Assembly (NCBI RefSeq): GCF_032854445.1
Contig: NC_088300.1
Coordinates: 5,024,001-5,088,000, forward strand
Length of the DNA stretch: 64,000 bases
Source of the DNA: Liolophura sinensis
Taxonomy: Eukaryota; Mollusca; Polyplacophora; Chitonida; Chitonidae
Reading direction: 5' to 3'
Shown here one piece after another: positions 454 to 44,634 of this stretch (within the stretch, counting starts at the first letter, position 1; each line of letters begins with the position of its first letter). The position numbers were made by a program, and so were the translations under genes. The notes beneath the pieces were generated by a model. That model was not told where the DNA came from, did not search any database, and saw only the letters and a program-made list of their open reading frames with translations.

Positions 454-1500
454 CTGAGGTCACAGAGTCACTGTCACTGAACAGCCAATCCAGACCCACC
501 ACACTGGTCTGGGATTGACTTTGGGGTGTCTTACTCACATACTGCTCACCTGCCCCTCCCCCTTTGAAGAACGTGGACAGCCTTAACATACTGAAGTCTT
601 TACCATCAGGTAAGCTTTTGCGAGCTGAGTTGGCGTTATGTTCAGTGAGAGTGTTGCTGGAATGTGACACATTCATGCCATCAGATGAGGAGAAACTCGG
701 GGTCTGAGAACTGTCCACTGTGCTGTGGGTGTTATCCTTCTCACTGCCGTTACTACTCTCCAGTGTCCACACCTCTCCCATACTCACATCGGACTGGTCA
801 CTGATGCTGGACTGAGGGGTGTGGTAGATGCTGGGGGGTCTGTGACCAGGAGTGATGTACAGAGAGGAGGCTTTCTCTACATGCCCTGCCGCATCTTCAT
901 CGTGACCTATGTGTGAGGAGATACGCTCAGGCACACTACACGCATGCACACTCACTTTGTCTTTCAATTTTTCTAAAGATTTAGTACTCGGTGTTCTTAA
1001 CCTTGCCCTGACACGGTCAAACTTTTCAGCTCTTCGTGATTTCGGGCTGGACTCAGCGCTGGCCACAACTGGCCTGTTTGCCTTATCCCCAGAGCTATGT
1101 TTGTGCGAGTCCCTTCCCCCAGGCAGAGCAGCATCATGGTTCCTGCTCCCTGAGTTACACTCATCGTCCTGTACAGCCAGCAGGTTAGGCCGCTGTCGTA
1201 AGGGAAGTGACATTCTGACAGTGGATGGTGACGACTTCTCCACAATGTTACTTGACTCTAAGGCACTTTTGGTACGTCTGACGGCTCGGCGGTGCTTCCT
1301 TGGCTTTATCCTGTGTCCTGGGGAGAGATCGGAATCACTGTCCTCCTTAAGTGGCCTCTCTGTCCCACCGCCTCCCCCGCAGGCACCCAGTTCACTCTCA
1401 GACAACTCAGCATTAATCTCAGCCGTTGTTACCAATGTGTTAGAAGCCCGATTGGCATCACTATTGCTGGACTCGGTGGCAACATCTGTTCTGTCTACAG
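454..1500 (-). CDS. PCNX: Pecanex exon 5, large Ser-rich disordered region
   Basis: A 1,047-base exon (349 codons) with acceptor TTATTCCTAG and donor CTCAG|GTGAGT. The product is rich in Ser, Asn, Asp and Arg, with a basic patch ([19 protein letters not shown]) and an aromatic/acidic motif near the end ([13 protein letters not shown]). This corresponds to the long, poorly conserved cytoplasmic region between the N-terminal membrane pair and the rest of pecanex. The open frame continues a few codons past the donor, but the splice site is strong. It leaves one base for the next exon, which lies outside the window. Confidence 0.85.

Positions 1501-44634: not shown

Follow-up and report, generated by a model that had tools for sequence, protein, structure and literature searches.

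Introduction

Irimia et al. (2012) reportedly described ancient metazoan microsyntenic pairs, in which the adjacency of two genes is said to be explained by cis-regulatory constraint. A related class, the bidirectional promoters, comprises head-to-head genes lying less than 1 kb apart. On a larger scale, bilaterian and chordate linkage groups keep their gene content while the order of the genes is shuffled (excerpt of PMC7269912). A close published precedent for the locus described here is provided by the PDI/RhoGDI pairs, for which an excerpt of PMC5722932 reports that two unrelated families lie adjacent at three duplicated vertebrate loci, that the older arrangement is found in invertebrates and broken in Drosophila, that the two genes share the same transcription orientation, and that the pair was followed across many genomes together with data on expression.

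Here we analyze a 64,000-nucleotide stretch (the window) of the chiton Liolophura sinensis, corresponding to C6:5024001-5088000 of a genome of 609,464,459 bp in 632 contigs; scaffold C6 spans 82.5 Mb, or 13.5% of the genome. Within it, a pecanex gene and a mixed lineage kinase (MLK) gene form what looks like one more very old neighbor pair, probably held together in the chiton by a shared promoter region. Their adjacency does not establish that the encoded proteins cooperate. Orthology of both genes was assigned by domain content and best match, and weak matches can be missed by searches of the chiton genome.

Results

Pecanex and MLK are arranged head to head

The pecanex gene, on the minus strand, starts at an ATG at position 5723 and the MLK gene, on the plus strand, at an ATG at 6433, leaving 709 bp of gap-free sequence (5724-6432) between the two divergent start codons. 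We thus confirm the proposal of a sequence-only reading that the two genes diverge with start codons about 710 bp apart. Because the sole run of Ns within the 124 kb examined sits at 31677-31876, to the right of the head-to-head junction, the adjacency is independent of scaffolding.

The following pecanex exons were located in the window:

454..1500 (ends approximate), minus strand: large serine-rich pecanex exon, from a stop-to-stop frame and codon usage
3085..3204 (ends approximate), minus strand: second coding exon of pecanex, continuing the N-terminal membrane region
5568..5723 (3' end approximate), minus strand: pecanex coding exon 1, from a tblastn match to a hand-entered human PCNX1 start

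The product of exon 1 shares 69% of 52 residues (E 3e-22) with the hand-entered human PCNX1 start, and a second in-frame ATG lies at 5747, 24 bp upstream of the conserved ATG at 5723. Exon 2 was 55% identical over 40 aa (E 9e-11), and the large exon, delimited by a 449-aa stop-to-stop frame and a codon-usage segment at 437-1480, matched no Pfam family. Further left, at C6:5002296-5003847, a Pecanex_C domain (one exon confirmed by Pfam) lies on the same minus strand as the N-terminus, such that the conserved N-terminus and Pecanex_C, which together mark the Pecanex family, occur on one strand at one locus. Searching the genome with Pecanex_C returned the locus of the pair and a single weaker second locus, C6:3765471 (3.77 Mb), which may represent PCNX4. 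No relative of exon 1 was found in prokaryote genomes, and a match of residues 29-48 (67%) to a 9.2-kb viral contig (L007) was taken as chance. The pecanex leader showed ordinary RNA folding (z -0.19). Pecanex intron 1 contains, at 3748-5482, eight inverted-repeat pairs, several of them nested, with arms of 27-89 nt, and this cluster is like a degenerate foldback element.

The exons assigned to MLK are as follows:

6433..7126, plus strand: MLK exon 1, SH3 and kinase N-lobe through HRDLKSSN, from Pfam SH3_1 and Pkinase
35716..35864, plus strand: kinase C-lobe, from a hand-entered MLK consensus with splice sites read
36258..36433, plus strand: end of the kinase and start of the leucine-zipper region, no Pfam match alone
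38791..39037, plus strand: leucine zipper, basic stretch and start of the CRIB-like region, no Pfam match alone
39488..39630 (3' end approximate), plus strand: CRIB-like FRHNITVQ and PRLRAI, matched by eye to MLK sequence
41531..41704 (ends approximate), plus strand: probable MLK exon, a coding-score segment matched by eye to the MLK C-terminal region
43447..44634 (start approximate), plus strand: last MLK exon with the stop, from a 419-aa stop-to-stop frame (43375-44634)

Exon 1 encodes the N-terminal SH3 domain (SH3_1, at 29-79) with a kinase domain directly after it (Pkinase, at 103-231) that characterize the MLK family. Its best relatives of solved structure are MAP3K9 and MLK4 (MAP3K9 structures, E 2.7e-65), and its only full-length match in the genome is its own locus, a further four matches (E up to 1e-6) being partial and no more than 51% identical. 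The exon at 35716 matched the hand-entered MLK consensus at 80% identity over 50 aa and scored 22.5 bits against the Pfam kinase model, for which the cut-off is 23.1. A leucine zipper and a CRIB-like region, further hallmarks of the family, follow the kinase: the zipper was found by search (60% over 83 aa to hand-entered MLK sequence, in an unfiltered search) and the CRIB-like FRHNITVQ by eye. The zipper, CRIB-like and C-terminal exons were all identified by comparison with hand-entered sequence, and six of the ten exon pieces submitted to Pfam had no family. The last exon, also without a Pfam match, had the highest coding score among the segments listed. Directly before it, at 41887-43044, is a tandem array of 48 copies of a 24-bp unit, which yields long open frames on both strands that are probably spurious. 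Another array, at 47937-49826, contains 40 copies of a 48-bp unit.

An exon is missing from the apparent 28.6-kb MLK intron

The stretch separating MLK exon 1 from the exon at 35716 had been taken by the sequence-only reading for one intron of 28.6 kb, an interpretation that is not borne out. The stretch includes an assembly gap:

31677..31876, no strand: 200-N gap in what appeared to be a 28.6-kb MLK intron, with no other N run in 124 kb

The phase-1 end of exon 1 does not fit the exon at 35716, which requires two preceding bases; because of this mismatch, joining the two directly shifts the frame. With a hand-entered MLK query, the exon encoding the DFG motif and activation loop (~60 residues) was not found in the window. 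In a kinase search of the whole genome, in which 150 of 155 candidates were scored, no match to the DFG/activation-loop stretch above 55% identity was present among the 45 listed; the exon at 35716 matched at 78% in the same search. The phase mismatch, the unfound DFG exon and the N gap together indicate that an exon is missing and that 7126-35716 comprises at least two introns. We consider it likely that the missing exon is located in the gap. An excerpt on the published Liolophura japonica assembly gives 0.0364% N across 1,110 gaps (PMC11068029), from which we calculate an average of 200 N for each gap. As a caution for users of the present assembly, its MLK gene lacks the activation-loop exon, most likely through a scaffold gap.

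The spacer has features of a candidate bidirectional promoter

Three features were recorded between the two start codons:

5724..6432, no strand: candidate bidirectional promoter between the start codons, GC 0.43, CpG peak
5901..5908, minus strand: YY1-type motif AACATGGC, directed towards pecanex and holding the ATG of a 43-codon uORF
6141..6151, plus strand: YY1/TISU-type motif AATATGGCGGC, directed towards MLK and holding the ATG of an 8-codon uORF

In overlapping 300-bp steps across 5700-6449, the observed/expected ratio of CpG was 0.68-1.28 compared with 0.37 for the window, and the 600-bp step at 6000 ranked third of 608 by CpG count. The two motifs are ones that we take to be YY1 (core AANATGGC) and TISU. 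The AANATGGC core occurs once per strand in 5680-6470, pointing outward in each case (5908, minus; 6141, plus), where a total of 0.25 would be expected, and the match at 6141 is the single exact occurrence of AANATGGCGGC on both strands of 124 kb. Among the remaining 709-bp steps of the 124 kb (12,140, overlapping), 145 contained an outward pair of AANATGGC. The enrichment is a post hoc observation, 12 motifs having been counted in the spacer, and is suggestive only. Of those 12, the spacer lacks the TATA, E-box, Sp1, TCT and CCGGAAR motifs and both forms of NRF1; it has one short ETS core, CGGAAR, per strand (6178, plus; 6229, minus) and a single copy each of CCAAT and TGACGT. The spacer thus combines CpG enrichment with matching outward AANATGGC elements on both strands, two of the properties expected of bidirectional promoters. 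This combination is suggestive of such a promoter, and makes the idea of a shared promoter in the chiton plausible as judged from the DNA.

The 43-codon uORF (MATRKSKRSQHEMLLKIEKTQQDMNEGL..., 5777-5905, minus strand) starts at the minus-strand YY1-type site and is out of frame with pecanex. A scan with bacterial sigma-70 and terminator models returned two promoter-like sites (shuffle mean 1.6) and one terminator-like site (shuffle mean 0.7), and no Rfam family matched the window at gathering score.

Both families are neighbors in vertebrates

We take the human PCNX/MLK pairs to be divergent, with spacers at 1q42 and 14q24 that are presumably tens of kb long. The Drosophila orthologs, pcx and slpr, are not known to be adjacent, and the pair would therefore not have been kept in all Bilateria.

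According to excerpts from several papers, the two families occur together in mammals and in chicken. The ~3 kb upstream of the MLK3 ATG is reported to end at the neighboring gene PCNXL3, which lies on the 5' side of MLK3 (PMC5464859). A list of genes in a 14q24 deletion, which appears to stand in map order, runs MED6, TTC9, MAP3K9, PCNX1, SIPA1L1 (PMC10751923), and chicken chr5 at 27-28 Mb holds SIPA1L1, RGS6, PCNX1, MAP3K9, TTC9 and MED6 (PMC10976558). KCNK1, MAP3K21 and PCNX2 have human 1q42 in common (PMC11892930), as well as a 1-Mb bin at 6-7 Mb of sheep chr25 (PMC11641353). The proposal that an ancient pair survives at three vertebrate loci therefore holds in part: the families do lie together, but the three ohnologous loci reflect one retention event and constitute one line of evidence rather than three, because all descend from a single pre-duplication pair.

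Genes of the 14q24 block share the chiton scaffold

We sought seven genes of the 14q24 block in the chiton genome, six from the human deletion list and RGS6 from the chicken list, picked for their distinctive domain models or, for TTC9, for a hand-entered sequence. The best matches were:

C6:17.87 Mb: MED6
C6:22.39 Mb: alpha-actinin (ACTN)
C6:22.79 Mb: SIPA1L, weak (29 bits over 32 positions)
C6:29.32 Mb: RGS6/7-type
C6:34.67 Mb: TTC9, hand-entered query
C6:37.46 Mb: ERH

The seventh gene, COX16, was not found; its family gave no match in any genome searched, and it is excluded from the count. All six located genes (seven sought) thus lie on C6, for which the chance probability is ~6e-6 given that C6 makes up 13.5% of the genome, and adding the second pecanex locus (C6:3765471, putatively PCNX4) brings the count to seven of seven. 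ACTN, RGS and TTC9 had additional, weaker matches on C13, C1 and C13, respectively, the best match being assigned by score; these weaker matches are probably spectrin-type, RGS9/11-type and another TPR protein. For comparison, MED7, which we take to come from elsewhere in the human genome and used as a control, matched C8, and of 44 non-MLK kinase matches (among the matches listed), 3 were on C6. The located block genes lie 13-32 Mb from pecanex and MLK, which are still 0.7 kb apart. Since these genes are distant yet on the same scaffold, the chromosome has been kept and its order shuffled, with the pair intact.

Downstream of MLK lies a convergent gene (61800-64000, minus strand, continuing to ~65440) with a split RRM (KIFVGNL..., VECDV..YGFV). 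It matches a hand-entered RBM4 at E 6e-5, scores 19.5 bits against Pfam RRM_1 (cut-off 20.7) and has Gly/Arg-rich and Tyr/Arg-rich frames; these features suggest an RNA-binding gene similar to RBM4, RBM14 or lark. Human RBM4 and RBM14 are on 11q13 together with MAP3K11 and PCNX3, and this neighbor could be another member of that old block. Elsewhere on C6, the alpha-actinin-type and SIPA1L-type matches are 0.4 Mb apart (22.39-22.79 Mb), and the human 14q24 deletion list names both ACTN1 and SIPA1L1 (excerpt of PMC10751923).

Discussion

Orthologs of pecanex and MLK are adjacent in distant phyla, directly in the chiton and through excerpts of papers in mammals and chicken, and a comparison of chiton with human would cross the protostome-deuterostome divide. 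The antiquity of the pair is well supported, resting on two independent lineages, one of them through papers. The three vertebrate loci count as one retention event combined with slow vertebrate rearrangement.

The explanation that we favor, with moderate confidence, is that both chiton genes start within one region of ~700 bp and that breaks in this region have been purged. Pecanex and MLK would have in common a CpG-rich, nucleosome-poor start region of ~700 bp, which would fire outward from two closely spaced start sites beside the YY1-type elements at 5908 (minus) and 6141 (plus). A breakpoint in so short a spacer would separate one of the genes from its promoter and so be removed by selection. 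We infer the start sites, the shared promoter activity and selection as the cause. A shared core promoter would not explain the longer vertebrate spacers (~3 kb at 11q13, and presumably tens of kb at the other two loci); in vertebrates the pair would instead persist by slow rearrangement.

The strongest competitor is neutral inertia, by which an ancestral pair was simply never broken in two lineages, with no regulatory constraint involved and the vertebrate copies adding nothing. The number of established independent lineages is indeed only two, and a small spacer is a small target, so that breaks between the genes should be rare. Set against this, the order of genes on C6 is well shuffled, as judged by the located block genes 13-32 Mb away, and if genes were ordered at random, two given genes would be neighbors in about 1 of 2,000 cases, taking 13.5% of ~28,000 genes to lie on C6 (about 28,000 genes are given in the excerpt on the published L. 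japonica assembly, PMC11068029). We regard neutral inertia as somewhat unlikely. A bolder version of the promoter explanation holds that a divergent PCNX-MLK unit predates the protostome-deuterostome split, that in unduplicated genomes it uses one short promoter with outward YY1 elements, and that it was copied and then kept at every surviving PCNX1-3 locus, despite growth of the spacer, through regulatory input that is still shared. This extension strikes us as doubtful.

Interleaved long-range enhancers, with elements in the introns of one gene serving the other, would suit the long MLK-side introns and the presumably large vertebrate spacers. Genomic regulatory blocks of this kind are a documented cause of kept pairs (excerpt of PMC8851819). 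The suggestion that such enhancers reside in the 28.6-kb MLK intron is weakened, as the interval holds an assembly gap, lacks an exon and contains several tandem arrays. In addition, neither gene is the kind of developmental transcription-factor gene that such blocks typically target, and we consider the explanation improbable. Convergent adjacency, in which the genes were joined independently in the chiton lineage and in vertebrates, takes what force it has from a comparison limited to chiton and vertebrates; both families and the located 14q24-block genes are on one scaffold, common descent requires fewer steps and is the likelier because macrosynteny is shared, and convergence is accordingly very improbable. 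Least probable of all, and unsupported, is co-regulation imposed by a need to match pecanex/Notch and MLK/JNK signaling, for which adjacency alone speaks; against it, head-to-head housekeeping pairs often share a promoter and not a pathway, and our literature text search found no paper naming both pecanex and mixed lineage kinase. The same type of search found no paper linking PCNX3 with a bidirectional promoter.

Were the PCNX-MLK pair to be confirmed across phyla, it would offer a clean test case for why a few neighboring genes have stayed together while gene order was shuffled for over half a billion years. Its spacers, at 0.7 kb in chiton, ~3 kb at one human locus and presumably tens of kb at two others, would help to separate promoter sharing, longer-range regulation and inertia.

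Relation to known systems

Viewed alongside known bidirectional promoters, the chiton pair is alike in its 709-bp spacing, CpG peak and YY1-type sites, a likeness known here from the DNA itself. The human spacers exceed the <1 kb type, at 3 kb in one case (excerpt of PMC5464859) and presumably more in the others. The 14q24 block on C6 behaves as genes of bilaterian and chordate linkage groups do, with content kept and order shuffled. The right arm of chicken chr5 is described as pure CLGA (excerpt of PMC7269912), and the chicken pair is on this same chromosome, at 27-28 Mb (excerpt of PMC10976558); by the few loci placed here, C6 may belong to CLGA.

The likeness to the pairs of Irimia et al. 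(2012) is drawn from the title and citing passages of that work, and for PCNX-MLK a regulatory constraint is a proposal; the pair might already be listed in its tables. We regard PCNX-MLK as a further case of anciently conserved neighbor pairs, a known phenomenon. As with PDI/RhoGDI (excerpt of PMC5722932), unrelated families are adjacent at three duplicated vertebrate loci, the arrangement is older than the duplications and is found in an invertebrate, and the vertebrate loci are three copies of one older pair. Unlike PDI/RhoGDI, PCNX-MLK is arranged head to head and has been read in one invertebrate.
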